A stretch of 64,000 nt of DNA. Origin: Bacillota bacterium (GTDB lineage: Bacteria; Bacillota; UBA4882; UBA10575). This document shows positions 26,602-34,171 of the stretch, piece after piece. Below the pieces are notes generated by a model. The model ran no database searches. It saw only the letters and a list, made by a program, of their open reading frames with translations, and was not told the origin of the DNA. A program made the translations under genes and the position numbers. The DNA lies in contig JAAYGG010000040.1 in NCBI GenBank assembly GCA_012727895.1, forward strand, positions 1-64,000. Direction: 5' to 3'. The first letter of the stretch is position 1. Each line of letters opens with the position of its first letter.

Positions 26602-27597
26602 TTAACCGCAGATCTCCCGGTAGGCCTCGAGGGTCAACCGGCCAATCCGGTCCCATGTGTAATTGGCCAAAATATGTTCCCGCAGCCCGGGAGGGGGCGG
26701 GCTGTATAGGGCTTGGTGCAAGGCGGCACGGATCGATGCCGGTTCCGGCGAGCAGTACCAGGCCATATCACCCAAGTATTCCCGGGCGGTACCACGGTCG
26801 GTGGTGACCACCCGGCAGCCCGCCAGCCCTGCTTCCAAATTCACCAGGCCCGGCGTGTCGTACCAACTCACCAGGGCATGAAGGGCGCAGGCGGCGTAAG
26901 CCGAAGCCACCCAGGTCTGGGGAAGCGGCCCCAAAAACTTAATCTTCCCGGCCTGCCGGCATTCCTGGTAATACTGGTAGTCGTTGATCGGGCCAATCAG
27001 GACCACCGTTTTTCCCAGATCAGCAGCGGCGGTGATCAGCGCTTTCTGGTTTTTGCGCCGGCAGATCCGGCCCACGCAAAGGATGAAGTCTTTTAACTGG
27101 AAACGGTTGATAAACTTGTCGGGTTTGGCGTAGAAGAATAAGGGGTCCACCCCATTGGGGATCACCCGGGCCGGTGTGATCAGGCGGTACTTTTCCACCA
27201 GCAACTGCAGTTCCTTCCGGCCGTTGGGCAGGATCAGGTCAACCCCGTCCAAAATCTCTTGCCGCAGGTGTTCAGTGCTCTCCAGCCAGTCAAAGAAGGC
27301 GCTTTCTTCCTCTGCCTCAATGTGGCGGAGAAATTCCGCCGGGTCCCAGTAAATGGGGGATAAAACCACCGGCTTGTTCCATTTTTTTGCCTGCCTGTAA
27401 AAACGGTAGGTCTCTTCCACCGGGATAATATTGAAGATATGGACCAGGTCATACCGGGAGAGATCCGCCTCCGGGGAGGAATCAAACTCCACTTCCACTC
27501 CCAGTCGCAGCAGGGCTTCACGGGTCTTTGTCATCTGGATAGTATCCCCGGCCATGACCCGTAGTACCGTAGCCCTGTTTTGCATTAATACCCGCAT
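26602..27597 (-). CDS. Glycosyltransferase family 4 protein
   Basis: 331 aa GT-B glycosyltransferase. The linker and donor domain show RVIPNGVDPLFF, then LCVGRICRRKNQKALITA, and the nucleotide-sugar motif YDTPGLVNLEAGLAGCRVV, with the E-x7-E type acidic position. The N-terminal acceptor domain begins MRVLMQNRATVLRVMAGDT. Donor and acceptor are unknown. The ATG follows AGGAGG at normal spacing. It lies directly downstream of the SPOCS coat-type gene, so glycosylation of a spore surface component is possible but unproven. Confidence 0.85.
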   Translation of the reverse strand: MRVLMQNRATVLRVMAGDTIQMTKTREALLRLGVEVEFDSSPEADLSRYDLVHIFNIIPVEETYRFYRQAKKWNKPVVLSPIYWDPAEFLRHIEAEEESAFFDWLESTEHLRQEILDGVDLILPNGRKELQLLVEKYRLITPARVIPNGVDPLFFYAKPDKFINRFQLKDFILCVGRICRRKNQKALITAAADLGKTVVLIGPINDYQYYQECRQAGKIKFLGPLPQTWVASAYAACALHALVSWYDTPGLVNLEAGLAGCRVVTTDRGTAREYLGDMAWYCSPEPASIRAALHQALYSPPPPGLREHILANYTWDRIGRLTLEAYREICG

Positions 27598-27660
27598 GAA
27601 AATATCCTCCTGTCTCCATAAATATTTATTACCCCCGGTGCCAATAGTTGCCTGTCAAAA

Positions 27661-27709
27661 TGATACAGGCCTTTGGTACGCACGGGCGTAAAACCAAAGA
27701 CCTGTATCA
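27661..27709. repeat. Long hairpin between the 3-SPOCS gene and the glycosyltransferase gene
   Basis: Arms TGATACAGGCCTTTGGT and ACCAAAGACCTGTATCA are complementary over 17 bp with a single G-T wobble position, separated by about 15 bp. No T run follows, so it is not a standard terminator. It sits 64 bp upstream of the glycosyltransferase start. Confidence 0.7.
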
Positions 27710-27740
27710 CGTGGGGGGAAGGGGAGATTCAGGGCAAGGT

Positions 27741-29558
27741 TTAGAAATAATAGGGTGGATACGGGACAACAACCTGTACCTGGAGTTGCTGGGATTCGGT
27801 GATTTTCACGAACAACTCCAGAACAACCTTTTGCCGTAGCCGGTTCGAATCAAGAAGTTCAAAGAGAATCGTCTCGATCTGCGGTTTAATGCGCACATCC
27901 ATTCCAGGGACGGCGCCGGGGATATCCACAAAAGTGCTGAAAGGCACATCTTCACTCTGGTGGATCTCCAGGTTGTTTTGGTTGATGAAGAAGATCTGTT
28001 TATGAACAATCCCCTGGATGATGATTTTATCTTCAATTACTTCTGCCATTAGTTGCTCCACTTTTGCCACAATCTCACGGATCTTCACCGCCGGCTGCGT
28101 AAGGGCAAGGGTACTCTCCAGCAACAACTGGGAGGTCTGTTCACCGACGACCGTATCAAGCTTTAGCAGAGCGCCCGGTCCAAGCGCCACATTCATCTGT
28201 ACACTCTCGGTGACCTTCACAAAGAACTCGACGACAATCTTCTGGAGAACGGTATTCTCATCCAAGAGCTCAAAATGGATAAATTCAATGGTCGGCTCGG
28301 TTATTACGTCCATCCCCGGTTCAGCGCCGGGAATATCCACAAAAGTACTGAATTCGACATCTTCCGCCTGGTGAAACTCCACATTGTCCTTGCCGATAAA
28401 GAAGATCTGCTTGTGCAACACCCCCTGGAGGACAATCTTATCCTCCAGAACCTCCACGCTGAGATCGGCGATCTCCGCCGTAATATCATCGATCTTAATT
28501 GCCGGGGTCTCCAAGGTAACCAGGTTTTCCAAGAGTTCTTGCTTGGTGGCTTCGCCAATTACCTGATCCAGGCGTACCAGGGGACCGTTTCCTTCCCTGA
28601 TATTAATCTGCGTGGGTTCGGTGACTTTCACAAAGAACTCGGTAACGACTTTTTGATGGAGTAAAGTCGGGGTAAGCAAGTTAAAGAGGATTGTTTCCAC
28701 TGTCGGGTGGATCTGGATATTCATCCCCGGCTCGGCGCCGAAAACATCCACAAAAGTGCTGAAAGGCGCCTCTTCTGTTTGGTGGTGGACGATATTGTCC
28801 TCACCGACAAAGAAGATCTGTTTGTGCAGCAATCCCTGGATAATAACCTTATCCGGAATCAATTCAGTGGTCAGATCGCGAATCTCCGCAGTGATATTCC
28901 TGATCTTAAGGGCGGGTTGGGAAAGGGTGATGTTGCTCTCAATCAATAGTTGTTTTGTCGCTTCACCAATGACCACCTCGGCCCGCACCAAAGGGTCCAT
29001 TAAGGTCTCTCCTCCTTTCGGTAATTCTTGAACTCCGGTGTCTCCGGCGCCACCGGTTTCTCTTCTTTCTTCAGCCGCCGGGTATTGCGGCAATAGCCCG
29101 CAGGCGCTTTCCGGAGGATCGTGTTCTTCGCGCCTGTACGCGCAGCACTCTGTAACAGAATCTGTTGGCGCGCATTTACGCCCATTCATCGCTTTTTCCT
29201 CTTCCGCAATCGCCGGGCTTTCCTGCACTGGATCTTCCGTACCTGCAAAATCCGGGTTTATTGCCTCTGAGATTCTTTCATCTGATTTTTCTTCACCGCA
29301 GATTTTTTCATCCGGCTCTTTTTCATCCAGGCTATTGTCATCCGGTTTTTCTTCATCTACGCCATTTTCATCCATGGTTTTTTCATTCAAGCTTTCTTCA
29401 TCTGAACTCTTTTCATCCGAGCTTTTTCCATCTGAACACTTTCCATCTGAACTTTTTCCATCTATCCTTCTTTCATCCGCGCTTTTTCGCTCCGGTTTTT
29501 CCTGGTCGTCATTGGTCTTCTCCGGAAAAGAAAGCTCAGCGCCGGGCTCCCTGGCCAC
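27741..29558 (-). CDS. Multi-SPOCS (DUF3794) spore-coat-type protein with three domains and an acidic repeat N-terminus
   Basis: 605 aa from a GTG at 29558. Residues about 190-600 contain three SPOCS domains, each with the order VIGEATKQ-LL...KIRNITAEI, DKVIIQG-LHKQIFFVG, then PFSTFVDV-GAEPGM. SPOCS domains occur in SipL and other spore envelope proteins and mediate coat assembly. Residues 25-94 are fourteen pentapeptide repeats (K-S-S-D-E-like); residues 95-186 are an acidic linker with several Cys. Start choice is open: an ATG at 29000 (MDPLVRAEV) has AAAGGAGG upstream and would drop the whole N-terminus. The same frame also continues above 29558 to 29801 with a membrane-segment-like stretch but no start codon. 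A partner gene with the same architecture lies immediately upstream. Confidence 0.8.
   Translation of the reverse strand: MAREPGAELSFPEKTNDDQEKPERKSADERRIDGKSSDGKCSDGKSSDEKSSDEESLNEKTMDENGVDEEKPDDNSLDEKEPDEKICGEEKSDERISEAINPDFAGTEDPVQESPAIAEEEKAMNGRKCAPTDSVTECCAYRREEHDPPESACGLLPQYPAAEERRETGGAGDTGVQELPKGGETLMDPLVRAEVVIGEATKQLLIESNITLSQPALKIRNITAEIRDLTTELIPDKVIIQGLLHKQIFFVGEDNIVHHQTEEAPFSTFVDVFGAEPGMNIQIHPTVETILFNLLTPTLLHQKVVTEFFVKVTEPTQINIREGNGPLVRLDQVIGEATKQELLENLVTLETPAIKIDDITAEIADLSVEVLEDKIVLQGVLHKQIFFIGKDNVEFHQAEDVEFSTFVDIPGAEPGMDVITEPTIEFIHFELLDENTVLQKIVVEFFVKVTESVQMNVALGPGALLKLDTVVGEQTSQLLLESTLALTQPAVKIREIVAKVEQLMAEVIEDKIIIQGIVHKQIFFINQNNLEIHQSEDVPFSTFVDIPGAVPGMDVRIKPQIETILFELLDSNRLRQKVVLELFVKITESQQLQVQVVVPYPPYYF
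29277..29486 (-). repeat. 15-bp in-frame tandem repeat in the 3-SPOCS gene (14 units)
   Basis: Degenerate units coding K-x-x-D-E/G (for example KSSDG, KCSDG, KSSDE, KTMDE, EKPDD). The register is kept over 70 codons with no stop. Divergence among units is moderate, so the array is not freshly expanded. Confidence 0.85.
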
Positions 29559-29849
29559 CGCCGGGGGATCCCTCCCGCCCGGGGCTGTACCTACCCGGAG
29601 GGGCGAGATCTTCCTCTTTCTTCTCCTTCTCCTTCTTAACCTGAGACCCCCGGGCGGGTAAAAAATCTTATCGTCCGGCTTGAGAGAAGAGGCTGTGATG
29701 ATCTGGGTGAGCCTTGTTTTATGAAGGCAGCATAACCAATAAACACTGAAGGCAATAAGGGCAAGGTAAAAAATTAACCCGATAATTCCTGTGGTTCCAA
29801 GTTATCCCCCCTTTCTCCCGCCGTCCAACGACCTTCGGATTCGCTACTA

Positions 29850-29877
29850 TAATATATGAATTGGTCATCGCTTGTGC
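29850..29877 (-). promoter_or_regulatory. Sigma-K-like promoter candidate of the 3-SPOCS gene
   Basis: On the minus strand GCACA, 14 bp, then CATATATTA, which fits the mother-cell sigma-K consensus (AC-type -35, CATAnnnTA -10). Its distance to the out-of-frame TTG at 29800 is about 50 bp. Confidence 0.4.
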
Positions 29878-29890
29878 TCATGGGAGGAAT

Positions 29891-29916
29891 AAAAAAAGGG
29901 CCTTTACGGCCCTTGC
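29891..29916 (-). terminator. Terminator of the 4-SPOCS gene
   Basis: Minus strand: AAGGGCC, loop GTAAA, GGCCCTT, then seven T. It lies 15 bp past the stop codon. Confidence 0.88.
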
Positions 29917-29930
29917 AAGGTTAACCGGGA

Positions 29931-32549
29931 TCAAAACGGTTCCGGTGCAAAAACCACATTGGTAACCACTTCCACAGGGACGGGTTCAGGAATGCCGTCA
30001 CCCACCACATCCAAAGGTACCACCGCTTTATCAACCCGGAGAATCCCCGGGCCGGAGACATCGGTCACTGCAAAGAATTCTTCCTCTACAATACCGGCCT
30101 CGGTAAGAACCGGCGCCCGGACCAAAATCCGTTCGGTGGTAATCCCCGGACCGGTTACCTCCGTAACCACATCGAACGGTTCGGGAGCTATCTCCTCCCC
30201 CTCCACCCGGACGCGGAGGACAATGAGCTGCCGTAAGAAGCGGCCGTCCTCTGACAGGGTGAAGGAGATATTCTCAATCTGTACACTCACACGGATCGGG
30301 GTATCCGGGGTCAAACCGGGGACGTTCACCAAAACCGAGAAGGGAACCTCTTCAGTAACCGCTTGCACCACATTCTTCTTGTTGACAAAGAAGACCTGCT
30401 TGTGAACGAACCCCTCCACCAGCACCTTTCCTTCGCTTATGATCCGGGCCCGGAGGTCAGTGATCTCCCCTCTTACCTCCCGGATCTTAATGGCTTTTTC
30501 CGGCAGTTCTACGACATTTTCCACGATAATCTGCTGCTCGCCGGTGACGGCGACGGGTTGGGGCACGACCCGGACCACCCGTACAGCGCGGACGGCTTCA
30601 GGAATGACTTCCTCCTTTTCTACGAGTAGCTGCCGGATCCCTTCCCCGATCACCTGTTCCAGCTTGAAGAGGGGACAATCGGTGGTCGCCAGGCGGGCCT
30701 GGATCGTTTCCGTCACTACCACCTTGGCCTGGAGGATCACTTTTTGCTGCAGGATCCGGTCATCATCCAAATGGAAAATTATCTGCTCGATCAGGATCTT
30801 CACATTGGCGTTTAAACCCGGCGCCGCGCCCGGGATATCAATAAAGAGTCCGAAAGGAACCTCTTCCATCTGGTGGCGTTCAATATTATCCCTGGTGATA
30901 AAGAAGATCTGTTTGTGCAAGATCCCTTGAATAATCACCTTATCCGGTATCACCTGGGCACTGACGTTTCGCACCTCGCCCACGATCTCCCGGACTTTGA
31001 TGGCCGGGCGCTCCAGTTCGATGACGGACTCTTTCAAGAGTTGTTCCTGGCCTTCGCCAATCACCTGTTCGACTTTGAAGAGGGGGCCGTCGCCCGTACG
31101 GACCCGCTCCTGAATCTTCTCTGTTACTTTGACAAAGACTTCGATGATCACTTTTTGCCGCAGTTCCACCGGGGAGACGAGTTCAAAAATGATCTTTTCA
31201 ATGACCGGGTGCACCTGCACATCCATGCCCGGTTCCGCCCCGGGGAGATCCAGAAACATACTGAATGGGACCTCTTCTTCCTGGTGGCGGGCGAGATTAT
31301 TCCGGTCGACAAAAAAGATCTGCTTGTGGATTATACCTTGGATAATTACTTTATCGGGAATGATCTCCACTTGGAGATCCCGCAGTTCTCCCCTGATTTC
31401 ATCAACTTTCTCCGCCGGCGGGTCAAGCTCCACTATCTCTTCGACCAGATGTTGTTTGCTGGCCTCGCCAACCACGGAAGGCAAGAGCAGTAACGGTCCT
31501 TCGTTTATCTCCAACCCCACCTGGACAAACTCAGTTACCTTAACAAAGATCTCCAGGATGATTTTTTGCAAGACCGACCGCCCGTCCGCGGCCAAACGGA
31601 AAAGGATCTTTTCAATGATTGGGTGCACCTGCACATTCATCCCGGGTTCCGCCCCGGGCACATCGATAAAAGTGCTAAAGGGGATATCTTCGGCAAAATG
31701 CCTGATTACACCGTCAACGCCAACGAAAAATACTTGTTTATGAATAACCCCCTGGATGATCACTTTATCGGGGATGATCTCCGCGGTAACATCCCTAATC
31801 TCGCCAGTGATATTCCGGATCTTCACCGCTGCCGCCGGCAACCGGGTAACCGGTATGGCCGGGGCGACCCGGGTTCTTGCTTCACCCACCTCTACCTGGG
31901 CGCCTTGAAAGGCCGTTGCCACCCCGGTCTCTGTTTCGACCTCTTCCACCTCTTCAACCTCATCAATCCCTTCAAAGCCGGGGGTTCCGACTTTAACCCT
32001 TACCAAATTGGGATCATACCCCGTGTGGGACTCTCCCGCCGTTTCCCCGCCCGTGCACGAATTCACCCTTACCTGTACCCTTGAGGGCATGACAATATTT
32101 CTTTCTTGTTCTACCTCTTTTTCATCTACCGGTTCCGCTGCAGCCACTTCCTGCTCTGCTTCAGTTGGCTCTGGCGGTTCCACTTGTTCTACTCCGGCCG
32201 TTGCCTGCTTTACCTCTTCTTCCTTGTTTGCCCCCGCTTTACCTTTTTCCGCCGTCTCCTGCCCGGTGCTTTGCTTTTTCCGGCTCTTCCGCGCCCGTGT
32301 GGTCTTTTTCTTTTTCTCTTTTTCCCCTGTCTCTGCCGCTGCCGCCGGTTTTTCCGTGGTTTCTGCCGGTTCTTCCGTGACTGCCGCCGGCTCTTCCATA
32401 GTTGCCGCCGGCTTTTCAGTGGTTGTCGCTGACTCTTCTGTGGCGGCGATCTCTTCCGGCCTTTCCTTCCCGTCCGCTATGGTTTTATCCTCAGCCCGCG
32501 GCCGGTTATCTTCCGGCCCACGCGCAGCATCCCTCTGATCAAACTCCAT
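29931..32549 (-). CDS. Multi-SPOCS (DUF3794) spore-coat-type protein with four domains
   Basis: 872 aa from the ATG at 32549. Residues 1-130 are low-complexity acidic and Lys-rich, including a 21-bp/7-aa tandem repeat (TTEKPAA, TMEEPAA, VTEEPAE) and a basic patch KTTRARKSRKKQS. Four SPOCS domains follow, each with PDKVIIQG-x-x-HKQ(I/V)FFV and PFS-x(3)D(V/I)PG; the fourth is divergent (SEGKVLVEGFVHKQVFFV). The C-terminal 90 residues carry two GPGI-containing repeats (VVTEVTGPGI, VTDVSGPGI). GGAGG lies upstream of both the TTG at 32552 and the ATG at 32549. No LysM or catalytic domain is present. By analogy with SipL a structural coat/morphogenetic role is likely. Confidence 0.86.
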   Translation of the reverse strand: MEFDQRDAARGPEDNRPRAEDKTIADGKERPEEIAATEESATTTEKPAATMEEPAAVTEEPAETTEKPAAAAETGEKEKKKKTTRARKSRKKQSTGQETAEKGKAGANKEEEVKQATAGVEQVEPPEPTEAEQEVAAAEPVDEKEVEQERNIVMPSRVQVRVNSCTGGETAGESHTGYDPNLVRVKVGTPGFEGIDEVEEVEEVETETGVATAFQGAQVEVGEARTRVAPAIPVTRLPAAAVKIRNITGEIRDVTAEIIPDKVIIQGVIHKQVFFVGVDGVIRHFAEDIPFSTFIDVPGAEPGMNVQVHPIIEKILFRLAADGRSVLQKIILEIFVKVTEFVQVGLEINEGPLLLLPSVVGEASKQHLVEEIVELDPPAEKVDEIRGELRDLQVEIIPDKVIIQGIIHKQIFFVDRNNLARHQEEEVPFSMFLDLPGAEPGMDVQVHPVIEKIIFELVSPVELRQKVIIEVFVKVTEKIQERVRTGDGPLFKVEQVIGEGQEQLLKESVIELERPAIKVREIVGEVRNVSAQVIPDKVIIQGILHKQIFFITRDNIERHQMEEVPFGLFIDIPGAAPGLNANVKILIEQIIFHLDDDRILQQKVILQAKVVVTETIQARLATTDCPLFKLEQVIGEGIRQLLVEKEEVIPEAVRAVRVVRVVPQPVAVTGEQQIIVENVVELPEKAIKIREVRGEITDLRARIISEGKVLVEGFVHKQVFFVNKKNVVQAVTEEVPFSVLVNVPGLTPDTPIRVSVQIENISFTLSEDGRFLRQLIVLRVRVEGEEIAPEPFDVVTEVTGPGITTERILVRAPVLTEAGIVEEEFFAVTDVSGPGILRVDKAVVPLDVVGDGIPEPVPVEVVTNVVFAPEPF
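32340..32444 (-). repeat. 21-bp in-frame tandem repeat in the 4-SPOCS gene
   Basis: Five heptapeptide units at residues 36-70, consensus T-T-E-(E/K)-P-A-A, continuing the coding frame without stops. Confidence 0.75.
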
Positions 32550-32653
32550 CAACGCACCCTCCTTTCTCCAGCCAGTTTCCGGCAGGCCTATGCCAAAACC
32601 TCAATAAACCGCCGGTCACCGCACCAAATCCGGATGGACATCCAGATCTGCTA

Positions 32654-32681
32654 CATTATATGCCACCGGCGCCGGAGGTGC
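32654..32681 (-). promoter_or_regulatory. Sigma-K/sigma-E-like promoter candidate of the 4-SPOCS gene
   Basis: On the minus strand GCACC, 14 bp, CATATAATG. The -10 hexad also fits sigma-E. The spacing equals that of the candidate before the 3-SPOCS gene. Confidence 0.38.
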
Positions 32682-32711
32682 TTATAGCTGCATTCTTTCG
32701 GCATACCTTGT

Positions 32712-32743
32712 AAAAAAAAATAGCGCCCTTGCCGGGCGCTATT
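32712..32743 (-). terminator. Terminator of the CAP-domain gene
   Basis: Minus strand: AATAGCGCCC, loop, GGGCGCTATT with a run of nine T. It lies 45 bp after the CAP stop and also insulates the 4-SPOCS promoter. Confidence 0.9.
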
Positions 32744-32787
32744 CCGGAGGAGGGCGGCGTTGCCCCTCCTCCCGAAAAGGGGTTTTT

Positions 32788-33534
32788 TTATCTACCCACG
32801 AACAATTGGGTGAACATGTTTCCATAAGGACCGCCTGCGACGATCCCGACCCCGAGGTAATTAAACCTCGGGTTCAGAATATTGGCGCGATGACCGGGAC
32901 TGGCCATCAGGTTGTTATGGGCCGTGGTGACCGAAGCGGCGCCGGCCAGGTTTTCACCGGCAGTGGTGTATTTAACACCGGCGTTCCGCATCATCTCAAA
33001 GGGCGACCCATAGGTTGGTGAATTATGACCGAAGTAGTTGCGGTCGATCATGTCTTGGCTCTTCTTCCTGGCCAGTTCCACCAGGGACATGTCCACCTGC
33101 AACTGTTGTAAACCAGCCTTCGATCTTTCCTGGTTCACCAAGCTCACCATCTGCTGCTCCTTGGAGGTAAGACTCCCGCTTGGAGCAGGAGAAGGAGACG
33201 GAGTTGAAGATGGCGGATTGGTGGAACCTGGAGGTTGTGGAGCAGGCGCCGGAGCGCTTGGTTTCTGCGGGACAATAATCTGATAGTATCTGTGTTGGCT
33301 GGTAGAATTGTTCCGTGTCGAATAGTACGTTGAGTAGTTCGATGTTTGCTTCGTTGAATAGCTCCATGTGCCGCACTGGCTCCCAGCACCGGAAGTGCAA
33401 TAATACGGGCTTGACGACCCACCAACGAAATAGTAGACACTGGCTGTTGCTGGAAGGATTGCTGCGAATACTAGCACGACGGCGATGACTAGACTACCAA
33501 CGAATCGGGCGCGTAAAGAAAGTAGCGCTGACAT
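32788..33534 (-). CDS. Secreted CAP/SCP-domain protein (YkwD-like)
   Basis: 248 aa. A signal peptide or anchor (SLVIAVVLVFAAILPATAS, about residues 14-32) is followed by a Tyr/Ser/Thr-rich segment with two Cys, a Pro-rich linker (residues about 92-120), then the CAP domain from 125: LVNQERSKAGLQQL, ARKKSQDMIDRNYFGHNSP, GENLAG, and SPGHRANILNPRFNYLGVG. The CAP His and Glu residues are all present. YkwD-type proteins are extracellular and often sporulation-linked; their biochemical role is unsettled. The start at 33534 has AAAGGAG at eight bases; an in-frame ATG near 33626 with AGGAGG too close upstream would add about 30 residues. Confidence 0.88.
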   Translation of the reverse strand: MSALLSLRARFVGSLVIAVVLVFAAILPATASVYYFVGGSSSPYYCTSGAGSQCGTWSYSTKQTSNYSTYYSTRNNSTSQHRYYQIIVPQKPSAPAPAPQPPGSTNPPSSTPSPSPAPSGSLTSKEQQMVSLVNQERSKAGLQQLQVDMSLVELARKKSQDMIDRNYFGHNSPTYGSPFEMMRNAGVKYTTAGENLAGAASVTTAHNNLMASPGHRANILNPRFNYLGVGIVAGGPYGNMFTQLFVGR

Positions 33535-33712
33535 CGAATACTCTCCTTTCATTACTGCCCTTTCCGGTGAGAAGGTTGCAACGACGATTTCTGCATTGTT
33601 TGGCGAAACCGGTGGTTGTCCGCCCATACACCTCCTTTTCAAGACAACCCGCAACCACTTCGGTTACTTTTTTAATTCAGTGCCCGGTGGGAAAACCCTT
33701 TATGTAAATAAA

Positions 33713-33737
33713 TACAGCCCTGGTAATCAGGGCTGTA
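33713..33737 (-). terminator. Hairpin downstream of the GerE-like gene
   Basis: ACAGCCCTG, 5-base loop, CAGGGCTGT. The following T-rich stretch on the minus strand (ATTTATTT) is interrupted, so termination would be moderate. Confidence 0.6.
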
Positions 33738-33798
33738 AATCGTAACTCTCCATCTCGCCCGGGGCCGGCCCCCGGCTCTTTATTCTAAACCTTATCCA

Positions 33799-34044
33799 TC
33801 AAAGGTCTTCCAACTTAATAATCCCCTCTTTGAGGGCAAAGAGGGCAATCTGCGTCCTGTTTTTCAGCTCAAGTTTCTTCCGGATACTGGTGACATAGTT
33901 CTTTGCCGTTTTTTCACTAATGAACAAAAGCTGTCCAATTTCGCGGTTGTCTTTACCAGCGGCCACCAAAGGCAGGATCTCCCTTTCCCTGGGGCTCAAC
34001 CGTTCAAGAGGACCGGGTCGATGAAGGTTTGGTAACTGAGCCAT
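33799..34044 (-). CDS. Stand-alone LuxR-type HTH regulator, GerE-like
   Basis: 81 aa, close to the 74 aa of GerE of Bacillus subtilis. After 15 residues the entire chain is a LuxR-family tetrahelical HTH: LSPREREILPLVAAGKDNRE, then EIGQLLFISEKTAKNYVTSI and RKKLELKNRTQIALFA. No receiver or sensor domain is attached. The start at 34044 has AGGAGG eight bases upstream; the longer frame to 34125 adds an unlikely basic N-terminus. GerE acts late in the mother cell to regulate coat genes; the two SPOCS genes lie just downstream on the same strand, so that role is plausible here but unproven. Confidence 0.85.
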   Translation of the reverse strand: MAQLPNLHRPGPLERLSPREREILPLVAAGKDNREIGQLLFISEKTAKNYVTSIRKKLELKNRTQIALFALKEGIIKLEDL

Positions 34045-34112
34045 CTGCCCTTCCTCCTCTCCAACCGTCCTTTCGGAAACGCGCGCGCGAACGGGACGGT
34101 TTTTTTCTGGTA

Positions 34113-34141
34113 CATGATATGACAAGCCGGAGAAAGAGGTG
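34113..34141 (-). promoter_or_regulatory. Sigma-K-like promoter candidate of the GerE-like gene
   Basis: Minus strand CACC, 16 bp, CATATCATG. The -10 is an imperfect match to CATAnnnTA. In Bacillus gerE itself is sigma-K dependent. Confidence 0.35.
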
Positions 34142-34171
34142 AGAGCTCCCTGCCTTTGCAGGGCTACCGGG

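Follow-up and report, generated by a model that had tools for sequence, protein, structure and literature searches.

A candidate late mother-cell coat module with paralogous LysM-less SPOCS proteins in a Bacillota lineage

In a 64,000-nucleotide stretch of a Bacillota genome (contig JAAYGG010000040.1; here called the window), two neighboring minus-strand genes, SP4 and SP3, encode arrays of four and three SPOCS (DUF3794) domains, and a gene for a small helix-turn-helix protein, here called HTH, is transcribed ahead of them. Judging from sequence, we find it reasonably probable that these genes form a late mother-cell, sigma-K-type, class-specific coat module with paralogous SPOCS scaffolds. 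We assign the module to the coat because SP3 and SP4 belong to the SPOCS family and the promoters are of a sporulation type, and we infer its dependence on sigma-K, its location in the coat, its tethering, and its regulation by the HTH protein. Several of these features had been proposed in an earlier note on the same DNA, and we followed them in the window's own genome (2.3 Mb) and in a class comparison of 29 genomes.

SP4 and SP3 are LysM-less paralogues

Both proteins belong to the SPOCS family (PF12673), SP3 with 143 and SP4 with 193 bits against a curated cutoff of 23.6, and seven distinct SPOCS domain matches were found in the window. The earlier note's description of adjacent minus-strand genes with three and four such domains was thus correct (E values in Table 1). 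A domain search of SP3 and SP4 for LysM found none in either. The two proteins are paralogues, with 52% identity over 404 amino acids, and are about 21% identical to the SipL-like protein with SPOCS and LysM domains encoded on contig C46 of the same genome. That gene came from the genome-wide SPOCS search proposed by the earlier note, which also returned two single-SPOCS genes on contigs C70 (L008) and C133 (L010); the one on C133 adjoins YlbJ-like and SASP-like open reading frames (ORFs), both named by eye.

One SPOCS repeat (137 amino acids) was modeled as six long strands with high confidence (pLDDT 93.9, pTM 0.79), while the three-repeat protein gave a pLDDT of 82.7 and a pTM of 0.39. A fold search of the PDB with SP3 and with one SPOCS repeat returned nothing at E < 0.001, so that a mechanism cannot be borrowed from a solved fold. 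Past its last SPOCS domain (29931-30200), SP4 carries repeated VTDVSGPG-like segments that are kept in relatives, and no Pfam family matched this C-terminal region.

SP3, SP4, and HTH share an extended promoter element

The elements that the earlier note had placed upstream of both SPOCS genes, GCAC(A/C)-N14-CATA, and upstream of HTH, CACC-N16, were all found (core positions in Table 1). The genome-wide search that it had suggested gave just three perfect matches to GCACM-N14-CATATAWTR in the 2.3 Mb, two of them being the SP3 and SP4 promoters; the third (contig C17:14557-14584; L146) lies 22 nucleotides (nt) before a YlmC/YmxH-family sporulation gene with a TTG start. In the 29 class genomes, GCACM-N14-CATATANTR had 52 matches, 48 of which were at SP3 or SP4, compared to 1 for the reversed control, and these and the other class-wide motif counts come from related genomes and are not independent events. 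The consensus sequences were GCACA-N14-CATATATTA-TAnTAG for SP3 (25 loci), GCACM-N14-CATATAnTG-TACTAG for SP4 (23 loci), and TCACC-N16-CATATCATG-TAnCAG for HTH. Throughout the class, hardly any variation was seen in the -35 and -10 blocks, and the spacer has widely diverged. Upstream of HTH, TCACM-N16-CATATCATG is kept in 18 of 25 class genomes. Moreover, within the window's family (genus g2 included), several genomes have HTH and the CAP gene that follows it on a different contig and still keep the promoter, and the match is therefore not carried by synteny. The N14 promoter was absent upstream of SPOCS genes in the loci L099-L145, which come from other clades.

The core CATATNNTRTANYAG had 94 matches in the 29 genomes, 65 of them at SP3, SP4, or HTH. 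Because the reversed control gave about two dozen, most of the other 29 are at chance level; one match outside the three genes (contig C144 of G009) carries the exact HTH sequence. In the window's own genome there were two further core matches, one inside a gene and one without a clear gene after it. We also observed a sequence resembling the core element, CACACAGGGAAAACCAGAATCATATCTTATACCA, 94 nt before a 73-amino-acid FeoA-like ORF (contig C61:11923-11951; L154).

The core is essentially private to the three promoters, which makes an additional dedicated regulator plausible. Indeed, since the element exceeds any sigma consensus and is confined to promoters that include the regulator's own, it might be mainly an operator for such a regulator (perhaps HTH) over an ordinary promoter whose sigma factor is unreadable, and the genes would then be a small self-contained regulon instead of plain sigma-K genes. 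We consider this unlikely, given that the -35 AC and the -10 CATAnnnT(A/G) are exactly as sigma-K polymerase uses them and that a CACC-N16-CATATCATG promoter precedes YabG in a different clade.

The promoters are most consistent with sigma-K

A -10 CATA is common to sigma-E and sigma-K. In C. difficile, the -35 region tells them apart, with AC indicating sigma-K and ATA indicating sigma-E (PMC3789822). SP3 fully matches -35 AC and -10 CATAnnnTA; for SP4 and HTH the final dinucleotide is TG and not TA. Sigma-K promoters of B. subtilis have a gap of 14 to 16 between the 5-nt -35 and the 10-nt -10 blocks (PMC517825), and the N16 of HTH lies within this range. The N14 spacer of the SPOCS genes, short for sigma-K, could mean that the three genes are read by SigE, at an earlier mother-cell stage, instead of by SigK. 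However, the invariant -35 is GCAC or TCAC, a sigma-K mark, with no conserved ATA there, and we give this option a slim chance.

Still less probable, and in our view hardly tenable, is expression of the genes during vegetative growth from housekeeping (sigma-A) promoters. The element does contain hexamers similar to TATAAT, TATACT, and TATATT, but a sigma-70-type scan gave no match at the SP3, SP4, and HTH promoter sites, which led us to reject a plain sigma-A promoter there, and the conserved -35 is GCAC/TCAC. In addition, the other whole-genome match precedes the YlmC/YmxH sporulation gene, and SPOCS domains have been described from spore coat proteins (PMC6436350, PMC10867305).

Outside the class, CACC-N16-CATATCAT(G/A) precedes an identified YabG gene in L101 as well as YabG-like ORFs in L104 and L127. 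In B. subtilis, yabG is under sigma-K, and work on C. difficile refers to YabG as a sporulation signature protease. The YabG family was missing from 28 of the 29 class genomes, and the remaining one (G017) showed partial sub-cutoff matches. The window's genome encodes SpoIVA, the separate SipL-like protein of contig C46, and SigK (337.6 bits, above the cutoff), with CACA-N16-CATAAAGTA upstream of the sigK gene; class-wide, SigK is present in 28 and SpoIVA in 27 of 29 genomes. We read the three promoters as sigma-K-type because of their footprint, the YlmC/YmxH match, the YabG promoter in L101, the presence of SigK and SpoIVA, and the -35 AC.

A frame with a predicted transmembrane segment precedes SP3

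SP3 very probably begins at ATG 29000, behind a ribosome site that is kept in nearly all relatives. In 22 other genomes, the aligned SP3 begins at this codon (MDPLVRAEVVIGE), one of them using GTG; these proteins are 63 to 80% identical to that of the window, and the 419 columns are gapless except for three C-terminal residues. The acidic N terminus that the earlier note gave SP3 requires a start at GTG 29558, which we rejected for its weak ribosome site and for the conservation at ATG 29000.

Between the promoter and SP3 lies an open frame with a predicted transmembrane (TM) segment (~29733-29789) and an acidic low-complexity tail. The TM segment occupies this place in 27 of 28 loci; in 13 of these, among them the window, its frame runs on into SP3, and in 14 it forms an ORF of its own. 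Within the window's genus, an ungapped comparison of 129 nt of the TM part with two congeners gave 5/3/10 and 4/4/13 differences for the first/second/third positions of codons, which indicates a third-position bias in this frame. A long fused TM-SP3 form is possible. At 29733-29830, the window has CTT where relatives carry ATG, and a TTG one base out of the TM frame hits a stop after eight codons.

HTH, the CAP gene, and the conserved neighborhood

The order of transcription is NuoF-like subunit, HTH, CAP, SP4, SP3, and glycosyltransferase. In relatives, where the earlier note had advised looking, the blocks HTH-CAP-SP4 and SP3-glycosyltransferase recur. Orthologues of HTH, 67 to 98% identical, were found in 25 of 29 class genomes, and CAP follows HTH in 24 of these 25; in the remaining genome the contig breaks off there. 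The CAP start is likely ATG 33534, with other candidates up to 33627. Membership of the glycosyltransferase in the module is uncertain. In other Bacillota (L100-L144), a YkwD-type CAP gene adjoins multi-SPOCS genes, mostly LysM bearing, in many clades; in several tandem SPOCS pairs there, the first member lacks LysM and has a charged tail, and a LysM-less array is therefore not unique to the class.

Two further structures were noticed by eye. An inverted repeat, AACCGTCC...GGACGGTT, in the HTH 5' untranslated region (34063-34101) is a possible operator or hairpin. Directly 3' of SP3, a long imperfect hairpin (TGATACAGG.CTTTGGT...ACCAAAGGCCTGTATCA; 27657-27711) is likely a terminator, whose loop made the scan miss it.

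The relatives (Hydrogenispora sp., a Limnochordaceae bacterium, and many metagenome-assembled genomes named just Bacillota) suggest a Limnochordia-like lineage, and the host class is little known, anaerobic, and apparently spore forming.

Table 1. Features of the SP3/SP4/HTH locus, in order of transcription (positions in the window)
Feature	Position	Strand	Evidence and remarks
HTH promoter, TCACC-N16-CATATCATGTACCAG	34107..34142	-	Core CACC-N16-CATATCATG at 34113-34141
HTH, standalone LuxR-type gene, 81 aa	33799..34044	-	PF00196, 2.8e-19; ATG 34044 with Shine-Dalgarno (SD) sequence
Terminator-like hairpin after HTH	33713..33737	-	Hairpin scan
CAP, YkwD family, 248 aa, hydrophobic N terminus	32788..33534	-	TIGR02909, 173.8 bits (cutoff, 171)
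Terminator-like hairpin after CAP	32717..32745	-	Hairpin scan
SP4 promoter, GCACC-N14-CATATAATGTAGCAG	32648..32681	-	Core GCACC-N14-CATATAATG at 32654-32681
SP4, 872 aa, charged N-terminal region, four SPOCS, no LysM	29931..32549	-	PF12673, 6.7e-58
Terminator-like hairpin after SP4	29896..29914	-	Hairpin scan
SP3-unit promoter, GCACA-N14-CATATATTATAGTAG	29844..29877	-	Core GCACA-N14-CATATATTA at 29850-29877
Open frame with predicted TM segment and acidic tail	29003..29801	-	In frame with SP3
SP3 ribosome site AAAGGAGG	29011..29018	-	10 nt before ATG 29000
SP3, 419 aa, three SPOCS, no LysM	27741..29000	-	PF12673, 3.1e-42; 23-genome alignment
Glycosyltransferase	26602..27597	-	PF00534; recurs beside SP3 by synteny

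Comparison with known coat and exosporium proteins

Like SP3 and SP4, SipL of C. difficile and other Clostridia has several SPOCS domains, but it carries a C-terminal LysM, its SpoIVA-binding part, which both SP3 and SP4 lack. In C. difficile, SipL consists of three SPOCS and a LysM (PMC6436350). The CotE and SpoVID proteins of B. subtilis share the SPOCS name with SP3 and SP4, the latter being arrays of three and four repeats. CotE, for its part, is without LysM. The name itself derives from SpoVID-CotE-SipL (PMC10867305), and CotE directs assembly of the outer coat (PMC6282716). A PF12673 search of a B. subtilis control genome gave no match, and sequence kinship to CotE and SpoVID is therefore remote. 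The B. subtilis coat protein SafA is also translated from an internal start, which yields the short form SafA-C30 (PMC6490927) and resembles what the fused TM-SP3 frame might do; the two are unrelated in sequence, and the long form is hypothetical.

SP3 also partially matched the CsxC model NF045794, with 36.1 and 39 bits. CsxC was found in the exosporium of C. sporogenes and is cysteine rich, with 14 cysteines in 273 residues (PMC4942563). SP3 and SP4 could thus be CsxC-type exosporium or appendage proteins and not coat scaffolds, and this weak similarity speaks for it. Yet the scores are far under the cutoff of 135 bits, which rules out membership of SP3 in the CsxC family, and the aligned SP3 of the window has zero cysteine. 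We therefore regard an exosporium role as rather improbable.

HTH, like GerE (chain 1fse, 74 amino acids), is a small standalone LuxR-type protein with a sigma-K-type promoter next to coat-type genes. GerE has been reported absent from Clostridium (PMC517825). When HTH was compared with solved structures, DegU- and VraR-type chains outscored GerE 1fse, which ranked 15th (a ranking of matches; no tree was made), and orthology of HTH to GerE is unsupported by this ranking. The label "GerE-like" given by the earlier note thus holds at the level of the general LuxR-type family PF00196 and not beyond.

A model for the module

In the coat module that we favor, SP4 and SP3 would be structural proteins of the spore surface (coat) that carry SPOCS arrays and lack LysM. 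The mother cell would produce them at a late stage, from two separate transcription units with near-identical sigma-K-type promoters. HTH, which shares the extended -10 element, would probably be coexpressed with them and may control them, much as GerE acts together with sigma-K. A scaffold would be built from the SPOCS arrays, and the predicted TM segment heading the SP3 transcript, whether fused in frame or as a separate small protein, might tether it to the outer forespore membrane; SP3 translated from ATG 29000 would be soluble and would attach through SPOCS contacts. We entertain only tentatively the more far-reaching idea that such twin LysM-less scaffolds, one of them TM tethered, make up a private three-promoter regulon under a LuxR-type regulator evolved independently of GerE.

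Several observations weigh against this picture or parts of it. The N14 of SP3 and SP4 equals the shortest B. subtilis sigma-K spacing or falls slightly short of it, and generic sigma-K patterns are hardly enriched in the genome (10 versus 8 and 12 versus 9 for the control), so that no wider regulon can be read. By sequence, HTH is nearer to DegU/VraR-type domains than to GerE, and while it is an obvious and plausible candidate for the dedicated regulator, its binding to the element is purely hypothetical. LysM-less SPOCS proteins have precedents in the SpoVID-CotE-SipL naming, in the weak relative CsxC, and in the partners found in other Bacillota. With respect to SP3, the acidic stretch very probably belongs to the upstream single-TM open frame and not to its N terminus; no ATG, GTG, or TTG was found before the TM segment in the window's TM frame; and the codon-position test of the acidic linker showed no bias, favoring neither a fused nor a separate reading.

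The proposals of the earlier note fared accordingly. A late mother-cell multi-SPOCS coat scaffold is borne out by the LysM-less module, the sigma-K-type promoters, and class-wide conservation with a LuxR-type regulator and a YkwD-family CAP gene, and is weakened by the short N14 spacer. Acidic, repeat-rich N termini had been ascribed to both proteins; SP4 does have a charged N terminus inside the gene (ATG 32549, SD score of 8), whereas SP3 very probably starts at ATG 29000, without one. The absence of LysM, and with it the difference from SipL and SafA, stands, but this architecture has the precedents just named, and the supposed absence of any other anchor is less than clear, a predicted TM segment being encoded just upstream of SP3 and in frame with it in about half of the relatives.

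In the literature that we found, coat scaffolding has been little explored outside Bacillus and C. difficile. This locus represents a deep-branching lineage in which two additional SPOCS arrays exist alongside a SipL-like protein, SpoIVA, and SigK. It also provides a new candidate for a late regulator, and its promoter signature is unusually clean. The small set of genes named here may thus offer a handle on the LysM-less "DUF3794" proteins.
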